In this document: piece after piece, positions 3,562 to 37,428 of the stretch
Layout: every line of letters starts with the position of its first letter
How positions within the stretch are numbered: position 1 is the first letter of the stretch
DNA from: a virus
Length of the DNA stretch: 64,000 bases
IMG/VR virus record: IMGVR_UViG_3300042291_000666
Location: 1-64,000 of that record
Reading direction: 5' to 3' (one strand)
Translations under genes and position numbers: made by a program
Notes under the pieces: generated by a model
Told to the model about the DNA's origin: nothing
Seen by the model: only the letters and a program-made list of their open reading frames with translations
The model's database searches: none

Positions 3562-3961
3562 AGATTCTGTAGTTATTCTTTCTGAAAGACAGGCTAGAGC
3601 AGTTGCTACTGACCTAGTTAGATATGATTTTTTAAAAAATATTTCAAAAGAACAAGAGAAAAGAATTGTAAATTTTGAAAGAACTATTATAAAATTAGAA
3701 AATACAATAAGCATAAAAGATAGCATTATATTTTACCAAAAGGATTATATTGATGCACAAAATGCCGTTTTAAATATAAAACCTAAACCACAATTCCATG
3801 CTTATCTTGGAGTTCAAAGTTCAGGATTTACTGTTAATACGCCTTTATTTTCTGGAAGAGTACTTTTAGAATGTAGAAAAATGAATTTTGGTGTTCAATA
3901 TATAGGAATACCAACACTCAACAATCAATATGGATTACTTGTAGAATATAAATTATTTTAA
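3485..3961 (+). CDS. Exported protein overlapping the spanin-like gene
   Basis: 158 residues. A signal peptide is evident (MKKYALLIPFLLVGFKAISQ). A helical middle (about 50-80) and a strand-rich C-terminal third ending in aromatic F suggest an outer-membrane or periplasmic protein. There is no lipobox cysteine, so it differs from classical lipoprotein o-spanins. The start nested in the preceding gene makes it the probable partner of that protein; it could equally be an unrelated envelope protein. Confidence 0.6.
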   Translation: MKKYALLIPFLLVGFKAISQNVTQSKDSVVILSERQARAVATDLVRYDFLKNISKEQEKRIVNFERTIIKLENTISIKDSIIFYQKDYIDAQNAVLNIKPKPQFHAYLGVQSSGFTVNTPLFSGRVLLECRKMNFGVQYIGIPTLNNQYGLLVEYKLF

Positions 3962-3965
3962 ACTA

Positions 3966-4109
3966 ATGGCAGCTAAAGCAAAAACACAAACAACAACATT
4001 TAAACCTACTACAAAAGTAAGTAGACCCGGTGTACATGCTAAGACTAAAACGTCTAAGATCAAAACATCAAAATTGTATAAGAAAAAATATAAAGGACAA
4101 GGTAAATAA
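3966..4109 (+). CDS. 47-residue lysine/threonine-rich protein
   Basis: Very basic small protein with the core SRPGVHAKTKTSK and the tail KKKYKGQGK. Similar short proteins are common in Bacteroidota phages, but no function is known to me. It starts 5 nt after the preceding stop and is followed by another small gene 2 nt later. Internal virion or nucleic-acid-binding roles are possible. Confidence 0.65.
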   Translation: MAAKAKTQTTTFKPTTKVSRPGVHAKTKTSKIKTSKLYKKKYKGQGK

Positions 4110-4111
4110 TT

Positions 4112-4258
4112 ATGGAAGACTGGGCATTAAAAATAGAGTTTCATTGGCCTCATCATAGGTTTGCATTAGGTTGGGATTATATTTCTCCTGACGAAGAATA
4201 TGATTATAGTACATCAAAACTATATCTTTTTTTCATTACATTTACATTAGATTATTAA
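4112..4258 (+). CDS. 48-residue hypothetical protein
   Basis: Small protein rich in aromatic residues (HWPHHRFALGWDY) ending LFFITFTLDY. The aromatic, GW-containing style resembles part of the larger protein at 11652-12128, so the two may share a fold. It starts 2 nt after the preceding stop. No function recognised. Confidence 0.55.
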   Translation: MEDWALKIEFHWPHHRFALGWDYISPDEEYDYSTSKLYLFFITFTLDY

Positions 4259-4272
4259 AAAAATTAAAAATT

Positions 4273-4557
4273 ATGAAAGCTCAAGGTTTACAACAAGGTA
4301 AAATATCTAAACAAAAAGTAAAACTTTTGTGTAGAGAAGGTGGGGAATTAGATGATGCTATGCAAGGATCTATGGTTGAAAAAATGAGAAAAGGTGGTGA
4401 TGCAATGAGATATGTATCTACTGCTGATGGTTCAACAAAAAAACAAGCTTATAAAATGGGTGGTTATGTTCAATCAGAATCAAAATCATCTATGAAAAAA
4501 TATAGAGGTGGTGGTGTACCAACAGCGTTTATTTACTCTGGACCATCTAAAAAATAA
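4273..4557 (+). CDS. Small basic protein with K-G-G motifs
   Basis: 94 residues rich in Lys, Gly, Met and Ser, with MRKGGDAMR, KMGGYV and RGGGV repeats. It belongs to a set of short proteins in this window carrying [MK]-[KM]-GG elements (see 8836-9000 and 46238-46411). Their neighbours are virion genes, so an internal or DNA-associated virion role is plausible. Function unknown. Confidence 0.7.
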   Translation: MKAQGLQQGKISKQKVKLLCREGGELDDAMQGSMVEKMRKGGDAMRYVSTADGSTKKQAYKMGGYVQSESKSSMKKYRGGGVPTAFIYSGPSKK

Positions 4558-4562
4558 CAATT

Positions 4563-5162
4563 ATGAATATTTTAACTGACATATTAAGTTTAATTAGACG
4601 CGGGGTTTTCACTAAGGTGGCAAACCCTGAAGATGTTATTGTACTTGGTGTAAATGAACAACCAGAAATGACTGGTGTTGCTTCACCAATACCTTATAAA
4701 TCTGTAAAACTTATTAAAGTTAAAGATCTTAAGATTGCTCCGGCTTTTTGTAATAATGTAAATACTGATTTACCAGACCCAAGAGTGTTGGCAAATGTTT
4801 TTCAAAAACAAGAAATTGATCCTATTACTAATGTTTGTACTAATTATTTTAGAACTTTAAAGTCATTAAGTACTAATCTTTCAATTAGCGAATCACTTGA
4901 TAATGATTATGTTGAGTTTATTACAACAGGAGAACCTAATACTGCAGCCAATTTAGGTACAGGTGCGGGTTTATATGCTAATAAAACTGGTGAGACACTT
5001 AACTTTAAATCATTAAAGGGTACGGGTGTATCAATAACTCAATCAGGAACTGAAGTAACTTTGAATCATGCAACAAAACTTATATTAAATTCACCAGATG
5101 GATCTTTTTGGCAAATTACTGTTAGTAATACCGGAGGGCTTCAGACTGTATTAGTAGGATAA
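4563..5162 (+). CDS. Fibre-type structural protein
   Basis: 199 residues. The N-terminal half is unique. The C-terminal half (from about 120) has the phage fibre signature NLGTGAGLYANKTGETLNF, followed by short strand repeats (SLKGTGVSITQSGTEVTLNH) seen in trimeric tail or head fibres. The N-terminus probably attaches to the virion. It lies 5 nt after the K-G-G gene and 2 nt before a holin-like gene. Confidence 0.65.
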   Translation: MNILTDILSLIRRGVFTKVANPEDVIVLGVNEQPEMTGVASPIPYKSVKLIKVKDLKIAPAFCNNVNTDLPDPRVLANVFQKQEIDPITNVCTNYFRTLKSLSTNLSISESLDNDYVEFITTGEPNTAANLGTGAGLYANKTGETLNFKSLKGTGVSITQSGTEVTLNHATKLILNSPDGSFWQITVSNTGGLQTVLVG

Positions 5163-5164
5163 TT

Positions 5165-5401
5165 ATGGAATCTAAAAGAACAAGATCAAAATATAGAGAT
5201 TTAATGATGCTAATTACTGGTGTAATTGGCCTTGGTTCTTTTGTGTTTACAATTTATGCTGTTGTATATATTCCTACTGTAAAAGATAATGACTTATTTG
5301 TGCAGTTAATGGGTATGATACAAGGTGTTGTTATAAGTAATATATTTGCATATTATTACGGCACAAGTGCTGATAATTCAGATAAAGATAATAACCAATA
5401 A
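5165..5401 (+). CDS. Holin-like two-helix membrane protein
   Basis: 78 residues: basic N-terminus, transmembrane segments at about 14-34 and 45-64, then YYYGTSADNSDKDN. The YY[FY]G[TS]S motif after the last helix is typical of small phage membrane proteins annotated as holins. Holins time lysis by opening the inner membrane to the endolysin. The endolysin here is about 42 kb away (47204-48127), so the assignment rests on topology. Confidence 0.5.
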   Translation: MESKRTRSKYRDLMMLITGVIGLGSFVFTIYAVVYIPTVKDNDLFVQLMGMIQGVVISNIFAYYYGTSADNSDKDNNQ

Positions 5402-5403
5402 AA

Positions 5404-5640
5404 ATGAACATTATGATTAGTAAAGAAGGCAAAGCAGAAGAACGCAAATGGCAAATTCAATCTGCATTAAGCACACTGCAAAGAGCAGAAGAAATTAAAA
5501 ATGATACATCATTAATGAGGGATGTAAAAAAAGCTGCCGGTATGGAAGCTAAAAGATTACAAACTTTAGCTAATGGTGGTAGTGTTATGTCAAGTGCTAA
5601 AAAAGCACCTGTTAAAAAAGTAGTAACTAAAAAAAGATAA
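5404..5640 (+). CDS. Small basic protein
   Basis: 78 residues, helical, with a lysine-rich tail (KKAPVKKVVTKKR) and an internal ANGGSVM element. A second ATG at 5413 is an alternative start. Tightly packed between the holin-like gene and another small basic gene. Not recognised; possible virion or DNA-binding protein. Confidence 0.65.
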   Translation: MNIMISKEGKAEERKWQIQSALSTLQRAEEIKNDTSLMRDVKKAAGMEAKRLQTLANGGSVMSSAKKAPVKKVVTKKR

Positions 5641-5646
5641 GACAAA

Positions 5647-5895
5647 ATGGGAACTCCTAAAAAAGGCATTTCTTTCCCTGAACAAGGGGTGGTATACCAA
5701 AGAGAAACAACAAATGGATATTATGATCCTACATCTATTCCTGCAGCTATTCAACAAAAAAAGAATCAAGCTAAGGTATTGAGAAGTATTAAAAAAGCAA
5801 AAGACGGAATTAATATTCCAAGGTCTTCAACTAGAGCAAAAGAACCTGTGCAATCAGCAGCTTTTAAAAGCGGTTATTGTTCACATAAAAAATAA
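5647..5895 (+). CDS. Small basic hypothetical protein
   Basis: 82 residues, basic, beginning MGTPKKGISFPEQGVVYQRE and ending GYCSHKK. It lies 6 nt before the large fibre gene and is cotranscribed with it. No family recognised. The adjacency suggests a fibre-associated or virion role, but this is inference. Confidence 0.6.
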   Translation: MGTPKKGISFPEQGVVYQRETTNGYYDPTSIPAAIQQKKNQAKVLRSIKKAKDGINIPRSSTRAKEPVQSAAFKSGYCSHKK

Positions 5896-5901
5896 ATCAT
5901 T

Positions 5902-8817
5902 ATGAGTATTTTTATACAAGAAGTATTAGGATTACTAAATAGAAATCAAAAGAAAGTAACTTTAGATAAAGCTAAAGATTGGTTTGAATTTGGTAAACTA
6001 TATCAGAGTAGTAGTTTAAATAATAAATCTGGCTATACTCCTAGAATGGACCCCTTTGTTATCAAATGGGGTGATTTTATTTGTCAAGCTACAGAAGATA
6101 TGACAAGAACTTTACCTGGTCAAGGTAATCTTGGATACATTCCTGTATATACTGATCCGTCAGGTAGTTGTAATTGGGATACTTTAAAAGATTCTATCAT
6201 TACACAAAATGCACTTAACACTATTATCAATATTGCTGGTTCATTACAAGTACTTGGAGATGTTCAAATTTCAGGAGGAGATTTAACTGCAACTACTTCA
6301 ACATTTAATCTTTTAAATACTGCTCCAGTATCTATTATCAACTTTGGAAGTACTACTACTAATATAGAAGTGGGTGGTGTAGCTACTGTTGTTAATATTA
6401 ATGGAACTGCGGAAAGTACAAGCTGTACTACAGGCGCATTAGTAATTGATGGCGGAGTTGGTATAGCAAAAAATTTAAATTTATGTGGAATACTAACTAT
6501 AAATAATACAACTCAAAGCACAAGTTGTACAACGGGTGCTCTAGTAGTAGCGGGTGGTGTTGGTATAGCAAAAGATCTTTTTGTATGTGGCAATGCTACT
6601 ATTACAGGAGATGTTGCAATTAATGGTGGTGACTTAACTTCAACTGCTAGTAGCTTTCAGCTTTTACAACAATCTACAACTATTGGTTTTGGATATAATT
6701 CTACATCTATATTTATAGGTGGTATAAGTGCTGTAAGTGCTGTAGTAATAAATGGTACACAAGATAGTAGTTCATGTATAACTGGTGCATTTAGAGTTAA
6801 TGGTGGTGTTGGAATTGCTAAAAATTTATTTGTTTGCGGTAATACTTATTTAAATGGATATGTTTATTTAGGTGATACACTTGCAGATGAAATTGCTTTA
6901 AATGGAACATTATTAGATAATAACGGAACTCCTGCAGCAGTTAATCAAGCATTGGTTGGAACAGGTACTGGTGCAGCTACTTGGCAAAATGTTGCTCTTG
7001 TTGGTGAAGTATGTGCTGTAAATAGCATTCCTTTATGGACTCCAAATTCAAGTACATTAGGTTGTTCTCTTATTTATCAAAATGGAAATAGTTCAACACC
7101 AGCTACTAAGATATTTCTTAAAGGTGGTTTGGCTAGTGAAGGTTCTGAAGTTAGAACAATTAGTGATGTTGCATTAGGGGTTAGTAATTATGCTGGTGGA
7201 GAAGCTTCTGCAGCATTTAACTTTAGATCTTTAGCTTTAGGTAATGATTCATTTGCTGCTGGTCATAAAGGATTTGCTGGAGGACATGCTTCAATTGCTG
7301 CTGGATATAATACTGGAGCTGGTAACTATGCTTTTGGATATTTTAATAGTACTGTTACTTCTACAACTTTGGATATATTTATTCTTAGTGGAACAATGCT
7401 TGTTGGAGATTTTATAGTAGCTAATGTTGAAAATGATCCGTCAGTTAGACATGAAATTTTAACAATTGTTGGAACTGGTACTATAGGACTAAATACAATT
7501 ACAATAGCAACTGCTATTGCAGTAAATATAGGTGAAGCTGTTGCAATAGAAGAAGCTGTTCCAAATAGAGGAGATAGTCAAGGTGCAATTGCACTTGGAG
7601 TTTCTGCTGCTTCTAAAGGAACTGGTGCATTTGCTATAGGCACAAGAGCTACAACAGATGTACCTAATCAAATAGCTATTGGTAGTCCTTTTACTACAGT
7701 AAAATTAGATGGTACTGCTCAAAATGATACTCAAAATAAACTTCTTGTTATAGATTCAAATAATATTGTTAGATGGAGAGATGCAAGTACAATTACAGCT
7801 AGCATAACTGCTAATAATGGTCTTACAATGAGTACTGCAAGTAACGTTCAGTTAGGTGGTACTTTATTACAAGGAACTATAATTCAAACTCAAGCTTTTG
7901 ATCTTAAACTAGAAGGTACAAGTTCAGCTCCAATATTAACTGTTAATCAATTAGGTACAGGATCGGGTTCTGTTGCAATCAAAGGAGTATCAACTGGCGG
8001 TTTTGCTGGATATTTCCAAGCAAGTACAAGTGCTCTTGGTGCAATATATGCTAATAATACGGGTTCTACACCAACTACAACATTTGAACAATCAAATGGT
8101 CAAGTTGTTTCTAAATTTACACGTTCAGGAAATACTAATACAGGCATTGGTACTGTACTAGATTTATATAATGTATGTAATACTGGCCCAGCTGTTGTTG
8201 GATTAGGTACTGCTATTAACTTTAATATAGAAGATAGCGCATCTACACCTTCTTATGCTGGTGGTATATCTTTTGATTGGACTTCATTTGCTAGTGGTAA
8301 TTCATCAAGATTTGTTGTAGAAACTGTAGCTTTTGGTACTCCAGCAAATCAATTAGAAGTATCTAATGAAGGTCTACTAACATTAAATTCATATGGTTTA
8401 GGTGCATTTTATGATCCATCAAATGTAGTTAACTATACATTGGCAGCTAAAGCAAGTGGTGAAATTGTTGAAGTACCATATCAAGCTCAATCTAAAACAT
8501 TTGCAGCATTAGTTATTCAATCAGGTGTTACAGCACCAACTATGCAAATATTACAAGATTTTCCTGGAAGTATAACATGGACATGGAGTTATGTTAGTCC
8601 TGGTTTATATACTTTACAATCTAGTCAACCAATATTCTTAGCTAATAATACAGCATTGTATATTATACCTGATGTAAGTGCAGGAAAACCTTATTGTGCG
8701 TCTATTGAAAGACAATCTGATACATTATTATTGATTAGTAGTTTTATACCAAATACTGGTGTAAGTGATAATAACTGTTTTGACAGAGCTACATTAAAAA
8801 TTGAAATATATCCATAA
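5902..8817 (+). CDS. Large adhesin-like tail fibre
   Basis: 971 residues. A virion-attachment N-terminus (about 1-95) is followed by a tandem module of roughly 115 residues beginning GGDLT; within it a TGALVV-GGVGIAKNL element appears three times (about 175-200, 208-232, 292-316). This element is common in phage fibres. Residues about 415-600 carry YadA-head-like repeats (ALGNDSFAAG, IAAGYNTGAG, AFAIGT) interrupted by an insert of about 75 residues. The remaining part is beta-rich to a compact C-terminal domain (about 870-971). The likely role is host surface recognition. No reverse transcriptase or chaperone gene lies beside it. Confidence 0.85.
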   Translation: MSIFIQEVLGLLNRNQKKVTLDKAKDWFEFGKLYQSSSLNNKSGYTPRMDPFVIKWGDFICQATEDMTRTLPGQGNLGYIPVYTDPSGSCNWDTLKDSIITQNALNTIINIAGSLQVLGDVQISGGDLTATTSTFNLLNTAPVSIINFGSTTTNIEVGGVATVVNINGTAESTSCTTGALVIDGGVGIAKNLNLCGILTINNTTQSTSCTTGALVVAGGVGIAKDLFVCGNATITGDVAINGGDLTSTASSFQLLQQSTTIGFGYNSTSIFIGGISAVSAVVINGTQDSSSCITGAFRVNGGVGIAKNLFVCGNTYLNGYVYLGDTLADEIALNGTLLDNNGTPAAVNQALVGTGTGAATWQNVALVGEVCAVNSIPLWTPNSSTLGCSLIYQNGNSSTPATKIFLKGGLASEGSEVRTISDVALGVSNYAGGEASAAFNFRSLALGNDSFAAGHKGFAGGHASIAAGYNTGAGNYAFGYFNSTVTSTTLDIFILSGTMLVGDFIVANVENDPSVRHEILTIVGTGTIGLNTITIATAIAVNIGEAVAIEEAVPNRGDSQGAIALGVSAASKGTGAFAIGTRATTDVPNQIAIGSPFTTVKLDGTAQNDTQNKLLVIDSNNIVRWRDASTITASITANNGLTMSTASNVQLGGTLLQGTIIQTQAFDLKLEGTSSAPILTVNQLGTGSGSVAIKGVSTGGFAGYFQASTSALGAIYANNTGSTPTTTFEQSNGQVVSKFTRSGNTNTGIGTVLDLYNVCNTGPAVVGLGTAINFNIEDSASTPSYAGGISFDWTSFASGNSSRFVVETVAFGTPANQLEVSNEGLLTLNSYGLGAFYDPSNVVNYTLAAKASGEIVEVPYQAQSKTFAALVIQSGVTAPTMQILQDFPGSITWTWSYVSPGLYTLQSSQPIFLANNTALYIIPDVSAGKPYCASIERQSDTLLLISSFIPNTGVSDNNCFDRATLKIEIYP

Positions 8818-17466: not shown

Positions 17467-19458
17467 TTAAAATAATCTGAGTTGATTTGATGATACAGTT
17501 AGAATATTATTTATTTCATTTTCAATGGCCTGGGTATAATAACCTTTATCAATGTTGTATGTTTCCCATTTGGGTTCCATCTTCATTTTGTTAAAGATTG
17601 CCTGTATCCATTTTCCTGCTTCTAATTGTATTTCTCTTTTGTCAACCCTGTTTACCTTTATAATCTTAACTCCAGTTCTAGATATGTAATATCTATTAAT
17701 TTTTTGAAGCTCATCTTCTACAAAAGTACCTTCTTTAATTGATCTGGCCACACATTTCCAATCACCATTTGATTTACTACCAATACAATAATCAAGTATG
17801 TTTTTGTTTTGTTCTAAATAATCTTCAGGAAGAACATTATGTACAAAATACTGATATATTGCTTTTGGTATAACCAACTTTGATTTGTTTTTATGTAACT
17901 GCAGATCATGAAAATCAAATCTACCTTTTAACTTCACAGGAGCATAGCTAAATTTGTCATTTTCCACTTTAAATAAATAATGCGGATCAGATTGTTTGAT
18001 TGCTCTCCATCTTGTAATGTCAACTTCTTTGTAATCATTAATGCCAATGTAATTGTTTACATCTCCAAGTACCAATTTTTGGTATTGGTCATGTTCCAAA
18101 GACAAATTGGTGGTTTCTTCCCACTCTTTACAGATAAGCATATATTCATCATAGTACTTTCTAGGTATTAATGTCTCAACACCATCTGTATTATGTAATA
18201 ATGCTACTGCACCGGGGATTCTTTCCATGATTTGCTCATAAAGCATCATCAAAGTTAACTGACCATTGATTGTAATCTTCATACATAACTCAGGATCATA
18301 AAAGAAGCTGTTTTCATCATTGCTAAGACCAAAAGTAGAGTTAAGTATAATCTTGTATACATAGTTCATTGGATTGCTCTTAGGGATCTTCTTACGCTCT
18401 TCAAAGAACCATTCATATTGATCACAGAATGCATCAACAGGAAAGTGTCCCGGAGACCATCTATTTCTAATTGCAAGATTAGGATAAAAACTGGTAACAT
18501 CTGAAGACATTATAATCATATCTTCAGTGCTTTCATAAACACCTTTCTTTCTTGCACCATGCACACCGCCTAAACCAAAGTCAGTTTTTACATCTCTGTA
18601 ATTCAGACTATATTTAAAACTACCTTTTAGATTCTTTCCATTTATTTCTAATGCATTGAATCTTTGTAGTAAAGTACTAAATTCACTAGAGCTAAACTTT
18701 ATGTATGGTAGAATGATGTCTTTAATCTTGATGATATCTCTATGTGTCCTCATATCCCTTAATTCTTTTTTAGGAATATTAAGTTTTTCAGATAAATAAT
18801 AGCCAAAAAGCTCTTTACTTATCCTTGGTTCTGAGGCACTGAATAGATTAATACCATATGTTTTAGTCAATTCTTTTCTTAATCCTATCTGTGACTTTGA
18901 TCTGTTGTAGATTTCTTTAGTTGACCTTACATCATTAATACAGTATTCTAATATTGTATCAATCTCTTCTTTTGTAGTTATTGCTGACGTATGATGAATA
19001 GGCATTTCAAGAATGTTATCCCAATCCATACTGTATTGAATCCATTTCAAACTAGAACGTTTGGCCGGGTTGTCCCAGTGATGCATTTTAAAGATATCTA
19101 TTTGACCAACTGACATTTTCCATTGAGGATAATCAGCAAACTCTTTTTTGTTGCTTTTTTCTATTGTTCTTTGCGCATATCTGTAAAGAGTATTTGCAAT
19201 TTCACAACCTGAAAGGTCCCACCAATCATCATGATTATCTAATATAAAATGTGTTATCTGAGCATCAAAAGCTAAACCATTATAAGATATGTGCCATTCT
19301 TTGTTGGCTATATTTGTATTTAAAAAACTTACAAGTTTACCTAAATCATTTTGCAGGTCATGAATAACAAAGATTTCTGTTTCCATAGTCTTATAATCTT
19401 CAAATACACCCGTAAAACAATTAGATAATGTTTCATAATCCATCACCCAGTGCTTCAT
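17467..19458 (-). CDS. Family B DNA polymerase with 3'-5' exonuclease
   Basis: 663 residues. Exonuclease motifs: Exo I D7-Y-E9, Exo II N60-G-x-x-F-D65, Exo III Y172-x-x-x-D176. Polymerase motifs: A at D320-x-x-S-F-Y-P326, B at K369 to NSTFG377, and C at HNTDG (422-426), where the usual D-T-D-S reads N-T-D-G while the key second aspartate D425 is kept. It is compact and lacks a long N-terminal domain, like PolB of several Bacteroidota phages. It is the replicative polymerase of this phage by context (primase, helicase and SSB upstream). Confidence 0.9.
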   Translation of the reverse strand: MKHWVMDYETLSNCFTGVFEDYKTMETEIFVIHDLQNDLGKLVSFLNTNIANKEWHISYNGLAFDAQITHFILDNHDDWWDLSGCEIANTLYRYAQRTIEKSNKKEFADYPQWKMSVGQIDIFKMHHWDNPAKRSSLKWIQYSMDWDNILEMPIHHTSAITTKEEIDTILEYCINDVRSTKEIYNRSKSQIGLRKELTKTYGINLFSASEPRISKELFGYYLSEKLNIPKKELRDMRTHRDIIKIKDIILPYIKFSSSEFSTLLQRFNALEINGKNLKGSFKYSLNYRDVKTDFGLGGVHGARKKGVYESTEDMIIMSSDVTSFYPNLAIRNRWSPGHFPVDAFCDQYEWFFEERKKIPKSNPMNYVYKIILNSTFGLSNDENSFFYDPELCMKITINGQLTLMMLYEQIMERIPGAVALLHNTDGVETLIPRKYYDEYMLICKEWEETTNLSLEHDQYQKLVLGDVNNYIGINDYKEVDITRWRAIKQSDPHYLFKVENDKFSYAPVKLKGRFDFHDLQLHKNKSKLVIPKAIYQYFVHNVLPEDYLEQNKNILDYCIGSKSNGDWKCVARSIKEGTFVEDELQKINRYYISRTGVKIIKVNRVDKREIQLEAGKWIQAIFNKMKMEPKWETYNIDKGYYTQAIENEINNILTVSSNQLRLF

Positions 19459-20540: not shown

Positions 20541-21545
20541 TTATAATTTAATATTCCCTAAAAGGAAATCATAAGGTAATGAATAATTTTTTTCTGTGTA
20601 ATGATAAGCAGCTCTTTCAATTACATCTTCTAATGCACTGGCCCAGCCGTTTAATGTTTCATCAGTAACATCAAAAACATATACTTGATTGTACTTGTCT
20701 ACAACAACAAATTTAAACAAAATATTGTATTCTTGTTCAGTTTCAGCCAAATTTGCAAAAACTAATTTGCAATATATAGCTGCTTGCAACCAATAATTAT
20801 AAAAATCAATGGTTTCTTTGAAGTCTGAAATAGTTTTACCTGTTGTTTTAAGGTCACAGATAGTGACTGTTTTTGTAGAGTGATTAATTTTGTAATAATC
20901 CAGGTAACCATGGAGGCCAAAAGGTCTATCTAATAAATCAGATGTCAAGTATCTTTCTGCATGTGTTTCAATAGGGTCTAACTCAAAATCAGTTTGTACA
21001 TCTTCAAACAAAGACATTACATCTTTATTACTTTTAATGTTTTCAGCCTGATCTTTACATTTTGCTAGCGTATCTCCATCAACTGCATCTTTACTACTGT
21101 TTTTTAAATAGTCCCAATAAGATTCATTGTCTGCATTTTGAATCTTTTCTAACCGGGCATCATCTAACTTAAGTGACTGGTACAAGTTCTGATCAATCAA
21201 TACCTGTAATATTTCTTGTTGAAATGTAGGGTCTTGACTTAATAAACTTGATTCACGGTTACTTGTAGTGTTATACAAAGCATTCAATACTTTGATATTA
21301 CTTTCTGCAGGAAGCTTGCCAGGCAGGATGTTAAACTTATCATTAACTTTATCTGCCTCAAATAAGAGACAGTGAATTAACTTACCTTCAACTAAGTGCT
21401 TATCAGTCCGGATTTCACGGTCTTCTAATATATAATCCTTATAAAACAAGGATGGTGAAAACAATAACTTATTCAGTGATGAATAACTAAATTTAAAGTT
21501 TTTATTTGAATAAAACTTTTCTTCTTTTGTTAAATCTGTATACAT
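20541..21545 (-). CDS. PD-(D/E)XK nuclease (RecE/Cas4-type fold)
   Basis: 334 residues. Early G-K-L-I-H motif (54-58), then catalytic D217 in HGYLDYY and D232-x-K234 in CDLKTTGK, matching the RecE/YqaJ-like nuclease superfamily (PDDEXK_1, DUF3799-like). Such exonucleases produce ssDNA for phage recombination. Overlaps the downstream start by 16 nt on the upstream side. Partner candidates are the Sak4-like ATPase and the SSB-like protein in the same run. Confidence 0.8.
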   Translation of the reverse strand: MYTDLTKEEKFYSNKNFKFSYSSLNKLLFSPSLFYKDYILEDREIRTDKHLVEGKLIHCLLFEADKVNDKFNILPGKLPAESNIKVLNALYNTTSNRESSLLSQDPTFQQEILQVLIDQNLYQSLKLDDARLEKIQNADNESYWDYLKNSSKDAVDGDTLAKCKDQAENIKSNKDVMSLFEDVQTDFELDPIETHAERYLTSDLLDRPFGLHGYLDYYKINHSTKTVTICDLKTTGKTISDFKETIDFYNYWLQAAIYCKLVFANLAETEQEYNILFKFVVVDKYNQVYVFDVTDETLNGWASALEDVIERAAYHYTEKNYSLPYDFLLGNIKL

Positions 21546-22684
21546 TCTTTTTTTTCTATTATTGTGTTTTTATATTTGTCTACTAAGTAAATAGATTCTA
21601 GATCTATTGAGAACACATTGTTTTTACAACCAAAAGTGTTTTTAATTACAGAATCATACATCTTTTTAATTGTTTTTTTAACAATAAAGTCTGTTAACTT
21701 ATTTTCTGCTTCTAATAACTGTACATACTGATCATATGCCCACTGACGGTTGTTGTCTTTACTACCTGAAAACTTCTCAAGTCTTTTACGTAATGTTTTT
21801 ACATTGATGTTATTCCAGTTGTTAGTGTCTTTGAACCAATCATAGTACCAAAAGAATAAGTAGCTAACAATATCAAATGACTCTTCAACATTACAATTGG
21901 CTAGCATTTCTACAGCCAAAGTTCTGTTGTCTTTGTCTTGACTTTGAATCATCTTAGATACCTGATCAAATTGATCTTCACTTATTACAGCTAAATCTTC
22001 TGATATAATCTTGTTGATTTCAACATCTTTTACAATCAATGCTGTTGTATTACGCAATTGATCATATAAAGCTACATTACCATCTCTGACAACCATATCT
22101 CTATTACCATCATGATCAAAATCTGATACTTTACTAGCAATATCATCTGCTACAGGTGATGTATATCTGTAATCTTTAACAACATTGATGCGTATGTAAG
22201 CTTCTTTTTCTACTATAGATAAAAACTCTTTGCATTTATCTAATCCTGATTCAGTTAACTGATCATTTTGTTTTAGCATATTAAATACTTCAAACATTTG
22301 AGGATATGTTAATGATTTACCCCAATCAAGTGTTAGCAAATTTAAAACTAATTTATCTGATACAATATGTATATCTGCTAATTCAGAATCTCTAATGATT
22401 TTCACATTAAATTTTGTTTTAAGCAAATCTACTTTTTGTCTAGGTAATTCTAAATTTGGATATCTATATATTTTTTTATCTTGCAAATCAATTGCTTTAT
22501 CTGAAGTAATTATATTTAGTAGATTGAGTTCATCCTGATCAGGATACCAACTTTTTGCTCTACCAAAATAATAACCATCTTCTTTTAAACTAAAAGATCC
22601 AATACCTAATCTTTCCTTTCCGTTTGACCAGATTGAATTTTCAGCTGAAACAGTTATGTCTAATTTATAATGTTTTTTTTCCAT
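21530..22684 (-). CDS. AAA+/VWA module partner A (paralog of 22686-23708)
   Basis: 384 residues from the ATG at 22682-22684, immediately after the upstream stop; an earlier ATG at 22696 lies inside the upstream gene. No known family. It aligns with the next gene over two segments: a strand-helix unit with SELADIHIVSD (against YELADLIITHD) and a helical segment with MIQSQDKDNRTLAVEMLA (against YLQSYNEEDRAIAAKVI). Probably works with the AAA+ ATPase and VWA-metallopeptidase upstream. Confidence 0.75.
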   Translation of the reverse strand: MEKKHYKLDITVSAENSIWSNGKERLGIGSFSLKEDGYYFGRAKSWYPDQDELNLLNIITSDKAIDLQDKKIYRYPNLELPRQKVDLLKTKFNVKIIRDSELADIHIVSDKLVLNLLTLDWGKSLTYPQMFEVFNMLKQNDQLTESGLDKCKEFLSIVEKEAYIRINVVKDYRYTSPVADDIASKVSDFDHDGNRDMVVRDGNVALYDQLRNTTALIVKDVEINKIISEDLAVISEDQFDQVSKMIQSQDKDNRTLAVEMLANCNVEESFDIVSYLFFWYYDWFKDTNNWNNINVKTLRKRLEKFSGSKDNNRQWAYDQYVQLLEAENKLTDFIVKKTIKKMYDSVIKNTFGCKNNVFSIDLESIYLVDKYKNTIIEKKECIQI

Positions 22685-22685
22685 G

Positions 22686-23708
22686 TTATTTTGCATATTT
22701 TAAATATTCTGGTTTTACTTGTACTTTAAATACATACAAGTCTCTATTACTAATGTGAATTTCTTTTCTTACAGTTGGTTCTAAATATTTAAAACTAACT
22801 GAATCAAGCTTGCCTTCTTTTTCTAACCAAATAATCATATCATGCGCGCTTTTTCTAGAGAATTTATTGAAGTCAGATTGTTCTAACCAATACTGAACAT
22901 CTTTGTCTCTATTAAAATGATACATGTAACGTTCTGATTTCTGTGCAAACTCCCATAGTAAATGATAGTTTTGTAAGTAATCAATTGTAGGAATAACTTT
23001 TGCAGCTATAGCTCTATCTTCTTCATTATAAGATTGTAAATACTTTTGTATGTCTTCTAATAATGTTTCATCTAAAACTTGTTTATTAGCTGATTCATAA
23101 ATTACTGTATCTACATTAATTGTTCCTATTAAACCTGAATCAACTTTATGTGCAAGATTTATAGCCATACCTTGGATCATCCATTCATCATATAATGAAT
23201 CTCCTGTAATACAATTATAATATCTTACTTTGCTAGCTAAATTACCATCATAAATTACATCTCCTGCATAAGCATCTACAGCTAAAACTGAACCAGCTGT
23301 ACTTTCAAGTGTTTGATAATTCCATAACTTGGCCATTAATACAGTTGACTTAATATTTTCTCCACTTTCAAATCTTTCATAGATATCATCATGGGTAATA
23401 ATTAAATCAGCTAATTCATAGTCATTGGTTACAGATATACCATGTTCTTTTAGAGCAGATTTGATTCTATCTAATGAAACATTACATTTTGGCAATACAA
23501 ATGCTTTCTTTTTGGTTTTAAAAGTTGTACTATCTTCAGTACTATTTGTTAATATATCACGTATTTTTAAAAATGTTGTTTCATCTTGAGTGACTAATAC
23601 TTGTTCTATCACATTGGATGATAGCACCCCATAATAAGGGGCACTATCTAATCCAAAATGATTTAAAGCAGTAGTATCATATGATTGATAAACTGATTTA
23701 CTTGCCAT
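22686..23708 (-). CDS. AAA+/VWA module partner B (paralog of 21530-22684)
   Basis: 340 residues, start 1 nt after the AAA+ gene stop. LPKCNVSLDRIKSALKEHG then YELADLIITHDD looks like a BRCT-like strand-helix-strand unit; a helical region follows with CITGDSLYDEWMIQGMAINL. It has paralogy to the downstream gene. No catalytic motif is visible. A role as substrate adaptor or target of the AAA+ machine is inference from the operon. Confidence 0.75.
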   Translation of the reverse strand: MASKSVYQSYDTTALNHFGLDSAPYYGVLSSNVIEQVLVTQDETTFLKIRDILTNSTEDSTTFKTKKKAFVLPKCNVSLDRIKSALKEHGISVTNDYELADLIITHDDIYERFESGENIKSTVLMAKLWNYQTLESTAGSVLAVDAYAGDVIYDGNLASKVRYYNCITGDSLYDEWMIQGMAINLAHKVDSGLIGTINVDTVIYESANKQVLDETLLEDIQKYLQSYNEEDRAIAAKVIPTIDYLQNYHLLWEFAQKSERYMYHFNRDKDVQYWLEQSDFNKFSRKSAHDMIIWLEKEGKLDSVSFKYLEPTVRKEIHISNRDLYVFKVQVKPEYLKYAK

Positions 23709-23709
23709 T

Positions 23710-24981
23710 TTATTTCATTGTCATTTTGATGATATCTGGATTCATCATCATTTTGTTAAACTTCTGTTTGTTACCATTGAAGATTGTACGTACAATTAGA
23801 TACTTAAGATCATTAGTGAAATAGTCTTTAGTACAAAGAGAAATCAATCTGTCTGATACTTTTTGGTTTACAGTATTGTCTTTACTGTAAACAACTGAAT
23901 AGTTAGCCAACCTTGTTGCTAATGTAGCAGCAATGTCTGCGCGGTATGTATCATCTTTTCCAATACAACCTCTTAACTCACCAAGGATATATGATTCATT
24001 ATCATGAGTCAACAAATCTTTAGGTGTTACCAGTTTGTCCAGCTTATTGTTAATAAATGTAGTAAACATAGAAGCAAAAGCATCTCCAACAGAACCTTCA
24101 CCAATCATTTGAATTAATGATAAGTTTGATTCAAAGTTCTCAAAGCTAGATATAGCATTAAAGAATGTTGTAATAGATCTTGCATTTGTTTCTAGTGTAA
24201 CTAACTCTGGGTGTAACAACAAAAAGTTGATACATCTTGAGTCAATACCTGCTTCTTCTGCCCATTGTGCCCATACATTAACATCAAACTTAAGGTTTGC
24301 TGTAACGTATCTGGTTTTTTGTGCAGCATCCACTGAGTTTACCATATACTCACCATTGTCTGGGTTTGCTGTTAATATGATATGCCAATCTTTTGGTAAT
24401 ACCCAAGAGATATAAGTTTGTCTATCTATTAACTCCATAACTGCTTGAATAAATCTTGTGTCAGCTCTATTCCAGTCATCTAGTAATAAGATACCGCCAT
24501 CTTTTTTATCAGCAATCCACTCCGGTGGGCAATAAGACATCCTGTTCTTACCTGTCATTTTATATCCTGTTTTAAGATATTCTTGAACTGCAAGTTCATC
24601 AACCCATAAACCAACTTTTTTGGTTACTGCTGTTTGAATATTAGCAAGGTCTGATGACGCAGCTGATCTTTGTGCTGCGGTATAGGATAAATCATCTATT
24701 TTTGGTTCTGAAACTCTTGTTTCTTTATACATTTGAAATTGACGTACTGGGAATCCTACTAAGTCACCCAACTCTTCTATCTGTGCAAGGTTAACCTTAA
24801 CAAAGTTTAAGTTGTTTTCTTTAGCTAGCTCAACAATGGTAGATGTTTTACCAATTCCTGATTCTCCTAATACTTCTACTGATACAGATTGTTTACCTTG
24901 TGCTTGTAAAAATCTATTGTTTGTAATAATGTGATTTACAAACCCTTTTAATTCTGTTACATTTAAATTTACTTGTGCCAT
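23710..24981 (-). CDS. MoxR/CobS-like AAA+ ATPase
   Basis: 423 residues. Walker A GESGIGKTS at 39-47, Walker B ILLLDD at 164-169, sensor 1 in LTANP around 203-207 and a candidate arginine finger R224 (QKTRY). This is the MoxR branch, which includes CobS-like proteins found in several tailed phages. These ATPases usually pair with VWA-domain proteins, and the VWA partner is the gene directly upstream (12 nt). The biochemical role in phages is unsettled. Confidence 0.85.
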   Translation of the reverse strand: MAQVNLNVTELKGFVNHIITNNRFLQAQGKQSVSVEVLGESGIGKTSTIVELAKENNLNFVKVNLAQIEELGDLVGFPVRQFQMYKETRVSEPKIDDLSYTAAQRSAASSDLANIQTAVTKKVGLWVDELAVQEYLKTGYKMTGKNRMSYCPPEWIADKKDGGILLLDDWNRADTRFIQAVMELIDRQTYISWVLPKDWHIILTANPDNGEYMVNSVDAAQKTRYVTANLKFDVNVWAQWAEEAGIDSRCINFLLLHPELVTLETNARSITTFFNAISSFENFESNLSLIQMIGEGSVGDAFASMFTTFINNKLDKLVTPKDLLTHDNESYILGELRGCIGKDDTYRADIAATLATRLANYSVVYSKDNTVNQKVSDRLISLCTKDYFTNDLKYLIVRTIFNGNKQKFNKMMMNPDIIKMTMK

Positions 24982-24992
24982 CTTTGTTTTTA

Positions 24993-26153
24993 TTAATTTA
25001 ATTTTATTACTTTTCCTGGTAATTCTTCATTCATAGTAGATATACTACTCAATACCCATAAGGCATTGTTTGGACATCCTGATGGAGCATATGCTTCACC
25101 ATCTGTTAAATATATTAGTGCTGTATAACACTTCTTTTCATTATAATGGTCAATTACAGGTTGGAAACTTGTTCCACCTCTACCATGTATAGCCCAATCT
25201 TTTTTTGGATTAAACTCTTCTACAGAATTAAGTCTTGTATCACATTGAGCTACTGTAATCTTATGACCAGTTTTACTCATATGATGTAACTCATTGTAAA
25301 ACTCTTTAAGCTCTTCTGTATTTACAGATCCAGATGTGTCAATACCAACAAGAATGTGATTTTTAAATTTAATCTTCAATCCTGGGTTTTCTGCATATCT
25401 TTTATTGTATTTACGTCTCAACTTTTTAGTGTATACTACAGATGAGTTTCCAACAAATCTTCTTAAGTAAGCTTTCCAATCAAATTTAGCTGGCTCAACA
25501 TGAAATAACTTTGCAATTAATTCACTTAACTCACCAGGTACATTTCCTTGTTTCTTTACAGTTTGTTCTGCAGCTTCTTTTAACTGATGGTCTATTTGTT
25601 TTTGAACAAGTTTTTTATCAGCTTCAGGTAACTCATCAAATTCTTTCCACGTACTGTGGCAATACTCTGATTCACCATCCATTTGATCCATTAATGAATC
25701 TAATGAAGGAGATGTTCCATCTTGTTTAGCTTGTTCCAACAAATTGTAATAGACTTTAGTCCCTGCTTTTGTAGGAAGATTTAATTCAGGAAAACTACTT
25801 AGTAATAATCCACCGTCTGGTAGCATGTTTGAACTAATATATTGATTGATCTCTAGATCTGCAGCTATATTAAATAACTTGTGATCAGAATAAAGATCTC
25901 TCATCAATAGATGTCCAAATGCTATATGTAATAATTCATGCTTAATCAATCCAACTCTATGTAATTCACTTAGTTCAGTGAAGAAATTAGGGTTAATTGT
26001 TAACTGCATACCAATTCCGTGTTTACTTACACCTGCTGTAGGTATACGTTCACTGAATTGTTTATTTATACCAATTAAAAAAAGCCCGTAAAAGGGCTCA
26101 TCTAAAATTAAAGTCTTGGTGGTTCTTGCAACACCATCTTGTATATTTATCAT
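24993..26153 (-). CDS. VWA-like metallopeptidase-type protein (DUF2201/CobT-like)
   Basis: 386 residues. N-terminal zincin-like motif H72-E-L-L-H76 with NIAADLEIN downstream (about 95-103), then a VWA domain with MIDAS D272-T-S274-G-S276, T328 (GGTSF) and T350-D-G. This two-part architecture matches DUF2201 proteins that partner MoxR ATPases, and the partner follows at 12 nt. A hairpin with a U-run lies inside codons 19-26 (26076-26098). Start overlaps the upstream gene by 4 nt. Confidence 0.85.
   Translation of the reverse strand: MINIQDGVARTTKTLILDEPFYGLFLIGINKQFSERIPTAGVSKHGIGMQLTINPNFFTELSELHRVGLIKHELLHIAFGHLLMRDLYSDHKLFNIAADLEINQYISSNMLPDGGLLLSSFPELNLPTKAGTKVYYNLLEQAKQDGTSPSLDSLMDQMDGESEYCHSTWKEFDELPEADKKLVQKQIDHQLKEAAEQTVKKQGNVPGELSELIAKLFHVEPAKFDWKAYLRRFVGNSSVVYTKKLRRKYNKRYAENPGLKIKFKNHILVGIDTSGSVNTEELKEFYNELHHMSKTGHKITVAQCDTRLNSVEEFNPKKDWAIHGRGGTSFQPVIDHYNEKKCYTALIYLTDGEAYAPSGCPNNALWVLSSISTMNEELPGKVIKLN
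26076..26098 (-). terminator. Intragenic terminator-like hairpin
   Basis: On the minus strand AGCCC, loop TTTTAC, GGGCT and seven T residues lie within codons 19-26 of the VWA gene. It looks like an intrinsic terminator or attenuator that would limit transcription into the AAA+/VWA module. It may be only a by-product of the codons used. Confidence 0.4.
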
Positions 26154-26452
26154 TTTTGTGGGTATAATATTTTTAATAATATTTTTTTGTAAACAACATA
26201 ATCTCCAAATTCTTTTATTGTAGAGTTAATGTTTTTACTAACTAATTCTTCTGGTAAATAACCTTTATCAATAGCTCTTAAAAAACGTGTTCTTTTATCA
26301 AACAACAATGATTTAGTAAATAATAAATCTAATATATCTCTGTCATCAAAATCTAAGTTTTTGTAGTTTTCAAAAGCTAATTCAAAGTCTTCACCAAGAC
26401 CCATAAACATTTCACGTAATGAAAAAAATTCTTTAATTGTTATCCTTGCCAT
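26150..26452 (-). CDS. Hypothetical protein
   Basis: 100 residues, alpha-helical and acidic in the middle (FELAFENYKNLDFDDRDILD). Overlaps the resolvase-like gene by 20 nt and the VWA gene by 4 nt, so it is translationally coupled to the AAA+/VWA module. Not recognised. Confidence 0.65.
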   Translation of the reverse strand: MARITIKEFFSLREMFMGLGEDFELAFENYKNLDFDDRDILDLLFTKSLLFDKRTRFLRAIDKGYLPEELVSKNINSTIKEFGDYVVYKKILLKILYPQK

Positions 26453-26816
26453 CTGGTAAAATTTCTATAATTACTCCAGGATTAACTTTGTCATATTTGT
26501 ACTCTACAAATACAGGCAATATACAATCTGCATTATCATCTTCAATCCAACCAAATGTAACCATATCATCTTGCACTGTTTGTGCGGGATTAATATAATC
26601 AAACTTGTGTTTGCTGCCTCTGATAAATGTAAACTGGATACTTACGGGTTGTTGATGTTTGGCCAACTCAGCTTTAAACTCTTCTGCATACAATGCATAA
26701 TAATCTTTAGCTACTTTTCTATAATTTACAACAGTTTTACTTGCTATAAAATACTTGCCGGTCCATCTTCTACCATTTTTACTACTTGGGACTGAGCCCG
26801 GTATGAACCATTTCAT
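26433..26816 (-). CDS. RusA-like Holliday junction resolvase
   Basis: 127 residues. The RusA pattern is visible: N-terminal IPGSVPSSKNGRRW, then F-D-Y-I-N-P (acidic pair region), Q-D-D-M and W-I-E-D-D-N-A-D near the C-terminal half. RusA enzymes cut Holliday junctions and branched replication intermediates before packaging. Located between the primase gene and a small gene in the replication run. Confidence 0.75.
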   Translation of the reverse strand: MKWFIPGSVPSSKNGRRWTGKYFIASKTVVNYRKVAKDYYALYAEEFKAELAKHQQPVSIQFTFIRGSKHKFDYINPAQTVQDDMVTFGWIEDDNADCILPVFVEYKYDKVNPGVIIEILPDGKDNN

Positions 26817-37072: not shown

Positions 37073-37144
37073 GTTTTTGTTTTTAAAAGTGTCACATATG
37101 ATAGTTTATTGCATGAATTTTTAGTAAAGTTTCATGCACTTTTG

Positions 37145-37230
37145 TAGCCGGAGAGGGATTTGAACCCACACGGATATTGCTATCCAAAGGATTTTAAGTC
37201 CTTCATGTCTACCAGTTTCATCATCCGGCC
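37145..37230 (-). tRNA. tRNA-Leu (anticodon UAA)
   Basis: 86 nt cloverleaf on the minus strand. The acceptor stem GGCCGGA/TCCGGCT has one G-U pair. The D arm has AACTGGTAGA, the anticodon stem AAGGA/TCCTT holds loop CTTAAAA, a long variable arm GGATA/TATCC is as in type II tRNAs, and the T loop is TTCAAAT with one mismatch in the stem. CCA is not encoded. It reads UUA, a common codon in this genome. Confidence 0.93.
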
Positions 37231-37354
37231 AAGTTGGTGTGGATTTGCTGTTGGCACCACACCATTGCAAGTATTACCTTAGCTTGCGCCACCATTCATG
37301 AACTTCAGACATCCCAATGGTTGTTATTGTACTATCTGAGTCAAATAACAGCTG
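37231..37354 (-). other. Structured spacer between the two tRNAs
   Basis: 124 nt with no gene. It holds three stems in a row: GGTGTGG/CCACACC (37235-37264), GCAAG/CTTGC (about 37268-37290) and CCATT/AATGG (about 37296-37320). It does not fold as a normal tRNA because no T arm with TTCAAAT is present. Either a small RNA, a degenerate tRNA, or processing structure. Confidence 0.4.
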
Positions 37355-37428
37355 TGATTCAATCAGGATTTGAACCTGAAACCTACGTCTTAGAAGGGCG
37401 TTGCTCTATCCAGTTGAGCTATTGAACC
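37355..37428 (-). tRNA. tRNA-Arg (anticodon UCU)
   Basis: 74 nt on the minus strand. Acceptor GGTTCAA/TTGAATC with one G-U, D arm GCTC/GAGC, anticodon loop CTTCTAA, T arm TCAGG-TTCAAAT-CCTGA. The anticodon stem has a C-A mismatch at the fourth pair. CCA is not encoded. It reads AGA, the main arginine codon in these genes. Confidence 0.9.

Follow-up and report, generated by a model that had tools for sequence, protein, structure and literature searches.

MoxR-type ATPases act as hexamers together with VWA partners, the target providing a ligand to the MIDAS metal, and in NorQD the C-terminus of the VWA protein NorD contacts its ATPase (PMC13036017). Phages carry comparable pairs: gp24 and gp25 are core genes of the N4-like phages, gp25 having a VWA domain, and in N4 both are middle genes. 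For the pair found in jumbo phages, a role as a virion assembly chaperone with structural-protein peptide processing has been proposed (Iyer et al., 2021; PMC7824862). The vWA-MoxR-VMAP ternary conflict systems combine MoxR and VWA with a third dedicated protein (PMC7159879).

The window analyzed here is a 64,000-nt stretch (positions 1 to 64,000) of IMG/VR record IMGVR_UViG_3300042291_000666, which is 118,325 bases long. Judging by its genes, the phage is crAss-like and marine, related to the crAss phages of the gut: 24-26% identity links its TerL to Crassvirales and to related Flavobacterium and Bacteroides phages, and its portal and capsid genes have PHROG matches. The minus strand carries a replication operon that runs through primase, RusA, o100, VWA protein, ATPase, P1, P2, exonuclease, two small proteins and DNA polymerase, with terminase, portal and capsid encoded by the complementary strand. 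The operon genes overlap or almost touch, and their content is that of replication and recombination. The isolate Cellulophaga phage phi14:2, also crAss-like, has the same Sak4-unknown-primase order, and neither the VWA family nor P1/P2 was found in it. The minus strand also has tRNA genes of the phage for Leu(TAA) and Arg(TCT), at 37144-37230 and 37354-37428. The operon genes referred to below are:

26433..26816, minus strand: RusA-like Holliday junction resolvase, operon context (phrog_1682, 1.8e-19)
26150..26452, minus strand: o100, 100 aa, directly upstream of the VWA gene with a 4-nt overlap, carrying a helical motif common to P1 and P2
24993..26153, minus strand: VWA protein, 386 aa, predicted N-terminal zincin-like metallopeptidase and C-terminal VWA/MIDAS domain, N4 gp25/phrog_1314 type
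23710..24981, minus strand: predicted MoxR-like AAA+ ATPase, 423 aa, N4 gp24/phrog_1297 type (2.2e-35)
22686..23708, minus strand: P1, 340 aa, distant paralog of P2, no Pfam or PHROG family
21530..22696, minus strand: P2, 388 aa (first ATG) or 384 aa (second ATG), distant paralog of P1 and the faster evolving of the two
20541..21545, minus strand: PD-(D/E)XK exonuclease, operon context (PF12705, 2.7e-7; phrog_412, 3.8e-17)
17467..19458, minus strand: DNA polymerase, operon context (phrog_1252, 1.6e-130)

An earlier note on this DNA had described a four-gene module at 21530-26153, and all four minus-strand ORFs are present, among them an intact AAA+ ATPase and its VWA-metallopeptidase partner, whose catalytic motifs are conserved in relatives. 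The VWA and ATPase genes are separated by 11 nt, and the ATPase and P1 genes by 1 nt. P1 and P2 overlap by 11 nt if P2 has 388 residues and not at all with the 384-residue start, which the note had chosen and which the homologues favor. The count of four was too low, since o100 shares its helical motif with P1 and P2 and the module thus comprises at least five genes, embedded in the replication operon.

The predicted VWA protein matches DUF2201_N (E = 1.8e-18) and DUF2201 (2.6e-15) above the Pfam cut-offs as well as phrog_1314 (E = 2.8e-62), and at E<=1e-5 no fewer than 363 phage records contain a member of its family. With an HExxH motif and two candidates for the third metal ligand, H81 and D99, both conserved in 71 relatives, it would qualify as a zincin metallopeptidase, and the remaining MIDAS elements of the VWA domain, GGT and TDGE, are likewise kept in the 71 relatives. 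The ATPase has Midasin as its best PDB sequence match (5e-5) and matches Pfam AAA_5 at 0.0014, under the cut-off; its Walker B sequence ILLLDDWNRaD is preserved across 53 ATPases. The sites concerned are:

25911..25940, minus strand: zincin motif H72-E73-L-L-H76-x4-H81 of the VWA protein, His and Glu invariant in 71 relatives
25326..25340, minus strand: MIDAS core D272-T-S-G-S276 of the VWA domain, invariant in 71 relatives
24844..24867, minus strand: Walker A GESGIGKT, ATPase residues 39-46, invariant in 53 relatives
24460..24498, minus strand: Walker B region GGILLLDDWNRAD, ATPase residues 162-174, conserved in relatives

By these family assignments the pair is the already known N4 gp24/gp25 pair, also present in jumbo phages, and the records of other phages name its homologues N4 gp24-like and gp25-like. 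It shares with N4 the two families (phrog_1297 and phrog_1314) and the fusion of a metallopeptidase domain N-terminal to VWA, whereas here VWA precedes the ATPase and P1, P2 and o100 are attached. The combination of an AAA+ ATPase with a VWA-MIDAS partner is that of NorQ/NorD, RavA/ViaA, CbbQ/CbbO and CobS/CobT, and the conserved C-terminus of the phage VWA protein recalls the NorD-ATPase contact; unlike the MoxR/VWA chaperone pairs, however, this one has an extra zincin domain, is located in a viral replication operon and has no metalloenzyme client in sight. The name CobS/CobT-like, used in the earlier note, applies only in a loose sense: the ATPase is weakly similar to the CobS type (phrog_249, 5e-6), but its partner is a DUF2201 protein for which the Pfam search gave no CobT family match, so that a CobS/CobT cobaltochelatase is not indicated. 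The vWA-MoxR-VMAP systems resemble the locus in adding further dedicated components to MoxR and VWA, but those added here, P1, P2 and o100, are without recognized effector domains, and no VMAP third component with effector domains appeared among their matches.

Several observations concern the pair in other genomes. The DUF2201 VWA-metallopeptidase (N4 gp25) is annotated as 'HNH endonuclease' in phrog_1314 and in many RefSeq/GenBank phage records, an annotation unsupported by the Pfam search, which found no HNH domain in the VWA protein. In some relatives the ATPase gene is broken slightly downstream of the Walker B region. In one of them, locus L032, the gene (3594-5903) holds a group I intron (Rfam Intron_gpI, 4874-5107) with an ORF of about 251 aa; it is also split near this intron site in L003, L015, L030 and L053, and those of these four that were tested have no match to Rfam at the gathering threshold. 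Split VWA genes occur in L006-L008 and L033-L035, with an adjoining ORF of about 278 aa that may belong to another mobile element. A DUF2201 VWA-ATPase pair (L303, 2175-5147) is also present in a human-faecal 'phage' scaffold, which looks like a bacterial chromosome fragment because its neighbors are sortase-, sirtuin-, rpsF- and SSB-like genes.

P1 and P2, which the earlier note had taken for paralogs, are not significantly similar by BLASTP (E = 0.2), and their relationship emerges from comparison of profiles: profile-profile alignment gave E = 1e-4 with a bridging sequence included and 8.7e-4 without it, against 0.019 or more for decoy families, and 200 column-shuffled profiles all scored lower. 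Single-family motif models rank the sibling first among the remaining ORFs of the window (P2 by the P1 model, 6.7e-4; P1 by the P2 model, 3.3e-3), and a P2 relative in L032 (ORF 6986-8005) matches the P1 profile at about 1e-6 and so matches both families. The two proteins are thus distant paralogs, as proposed. By the same approach o100 is a third sibling (hhalign to P2, E = 3.6e-5; to P1, 1.6e-3; none of 200 shuffles as good for either), and several P2 proteins match the o100 model directly, the best at 3e-5. The common element is a helical motif of about 50 residues:

26303..26452, minus strand: shared helical motif, o100 residues 1-50, acidic residue E21
22935..23093, minus strand: shared helical motif, P1 residues 206-258, acidic residue E230
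21848..22006, minus strand: shared helical motif, P2 residues 231-283, acidic residue D256

Its signature runs from a helix closed by [SG] through a short loop, in which an acidic residue sits, to x-x-[LIM]-A in a second helix; at the acidic position 96%, 97% and 92% of the sequences in the three families have D or E. For each pair among the three proteins the motif similarity exceeds that of all 200 shuffled profiles, and among the ORFs of the window and the loci searched only o100, P1 and P2 carry it. The suggestion that P1 and P2 are substrates or adaptors of the pair is plausible and is better grounded by this motif shared with o100. The metal-dependent targets that the earlier note had envisaged lack support, there being no Cys/His cluster common to P1 and P2 at their near-invariant positions.

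AlphaFold2 models of P1 (pLDDT 89.9, pTM 0.80) and P2 (pLDDT 84.7, pTM 0.60) matched no PDB structure at E<=0.001 in Foldseek, and PDB sequence searches with both profiles returned chance-level or odd matches only. Both models offer a weak and tentative hint, at the level of fold, of a BRCT-like region:

23379..23519, minus strand: tentative BRCT-like region of P1, residues 64-110 (Foldseek to BRCT domains, probability 0.77-0.80, E 0.4-1.1)
22262..22492, minus strand: tentative BRCT-like region of P2, residues 69-145 (many BRCT structures in the Foldseek list, probability <=0.54, E about 0.2-0.6)

Pfam BRCT matches were found in 10 of 38 P1 members, all weak, the best at E = 0.0083. We do not count BRCT among the proven domains of P1 or P2, the BRCT profile of bacterial LigA being not significant against either and no better than shuffles. 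A LAGLIDADG identity for P2 (E = 0.0054) was rejected, as structure comparison gave it no support. In BFVD, P1 has full-length fold relatives in A0A8S5QMV2 (crAss-like ctYsL76), A0A6J5LXR8, A0A8S5TL70 and A0A8S5TKB2, the last two both encoded by Podoviridae ctz6O13; they align at Foldseek probability 1.00 (E 2e-7 to 6e-6, 315-372 columns) but differ from P1 in sequence (8-11% identity) with TM-scores of 0.31-0.40.

The survey of co-occurrence called for by the earlier note gave a strict result. ATPase and VWA genes accompany P1 or P2 in all 197 loci that extend far enough upstream, and P1 and P2 accompany VWA in all 163 that extend far enough downstream, these loci representing fewer independent genomes because many are overlapping extracts of the same contigs. 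Gene order is fixed across them, and the P1/P2 linkage extends to the most divergent relatives; the co-occurrence lies within one clade, so the fixed order could reflect shared descent alone. Carriers of P1/P2 without the pair, which if widespread would have refuted the reading of the earlier note by its own criterion, were not found in these searches. A P1 profile scan of one genome from each of 84,980 prokaryote species returned three contigs on which the operon stands whole or in part; we read them as phage contigs binned with bacteria. Whole-genome searches of eight other phages with the VWA family gave no P1/P2, and neither did three crAss-like isolates without the pair, nor do P1/P2 relatives adjoin the pair in other phages or bacterial-type pairs, and neither blastn nor tblastn matched the module, P1, P2 or the ATPase to any of 50,697 phage records. 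The surveys rely on short patterns that for the most part recover close kin, so that more remote P1/P2 relatives may have been missed, as the four BFVD fold relatives of P1 in other viruses indeed indicate. Since other phages use the pair without a P1/P2 relative, P1 and P2 are not needed for its core activity.

The genes evolve at different rates. Mean pairwise identity among representatives is 0.87 for the ATPase, 0.82 for the VWA protein, 0.63 for P1, 0.43 for P2 and 0.41 for o100, compared with 0.66 for the exonuclease and 54% for the small operon protein o193. Within P2 the helical motif with the next segment (0.56-0.59) and the BRCT-like region (0.48) are conserved, the rest standing at 0.23-0.36. 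L032 has, beside its resident diverged P2, a second P2 (7985-9255) that is 86% identical to that of the window and gives it three tandem P-family genes; the DNA segment is 88% identical and its flanks 67-75%, which marks it as an import by recombination from the lineage of the window.

Taking together the genes with their intact catalytic motifs, the paralogy, the shared motif, the strict co-occurrence and the replication-operon setting, we tentatively propose, at somewhat less than an even chance, that the module encodes a phage AAA+ remodeling machine of the MoxR/VWA kind, with a zincin and an accessory family of its own, that acts in DNA metabolism; complex formation, docking, proteolysis and DNA-related targets are what we infer. 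By analogy with other MoxR/VWA pairs, the ATPase would act as a hexamer, either on the VWA protein itself or by way of it, and the target would be held at the MIDAS metal site of that protein. The motif with its near-invariant acidic residue may dock o100, P1 and P2 on one common surface, possibly the MIDAS, and the rest of P1 and P2, including the BRCT-like region, would select the target. Given the operon setting, the likeliest targets are DNA-bound proteins or members of replication/recombination complexes, which would be pulled apart, or cut by the zincin, during phage DNA synthesis; several other phages likewise have the pair near DNA-metabolism genes. Counting against the docking step, helix capping commonly puts an acidic residue at the start of a helix as well, and counting against the machine as such, the ATPase scores below the Pfam AAA cut-offs. 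A more specific version, a segregase-protease whose MIDAS is loaded by three sibling adaptors through the shared acidic motif and which BRCT-like regions steer to proteins on replicating DNA, as a viral counterpart of p97/SPRTN-type removal of proteins from DNA, is decidedly unlikely.

Somewhat unlikely, in our estimate, is that P1, P2 and o100 are instead clients of the pair, to be folded, assembled or proteolytically matured, for example into a replication/recombination complex. Well-studied MoxR/VWA pairs (NorQD, RavA-ViaA) do act on dedicated clients, and the fixed operon and strict co-occurrence would be expected of clients too; one motif in three proteins fits a docking element better, although a shared client recognition tag would look identical, and P1 and P2 have no conserved metal-ligand cluster. 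P1 and P2 may also serve replication or recombination on their own, with the operon in common with the pair but no physical link to it, which agrees with the DNA enzymes on both sides and with the synteny of the whole run rather than of the module alone. We consider this unlikely, because the genes for the three motif-bearing proteins flank precisely those of the VWA protein and the ATPase and because P1/P2 are absent from the three crAss-like phages without the pair.

The virion assembly chaperone with structural-protein peptide processing, extended to this phage from the jumbo-phage proposal, has a precedent in the Acidianus two-tailed virus (PMC7824862), and a roseophage structural module lies near gp24/gp25 homologues (PMC4193335). 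In this phage, however, the module belongs to a replication operon and does not share a strand with terminase, portal and capsid; this argues against virion assembly, as does the middle-gene status of N4 gp24/gp25, and we regard such a role as very unlikely. A role in host takeover or counter-defence, with P2 and o100 diverging fast against changing host or rival-phage targets, would accord with their low identity (43% and 41%) beside the 87% of the ATPase and with the imported P2 of L032. However, o193 and the exonuclease likewise evolve faster than the pair, the module occurs in every genome of the clade and is not patchy, and a PADLOC search gave no match of note; this anti-defence reading, highly improbable, was rejected.

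As far as the literature searched shows, the sibling family attached to the pair is undescribed. Under the remodeling-machine reading, partners that share a motif and are locked to the pair would be candidate binding partners and would narrow mutagenesis to one residue, so that the question can be put to the test. Named partners are of value as gp24/gp25 are core genes of a whole phage family without a known function, and, for this phage group if for no other, the locus would speak for a part in DNA metabolism and not in building the virion.
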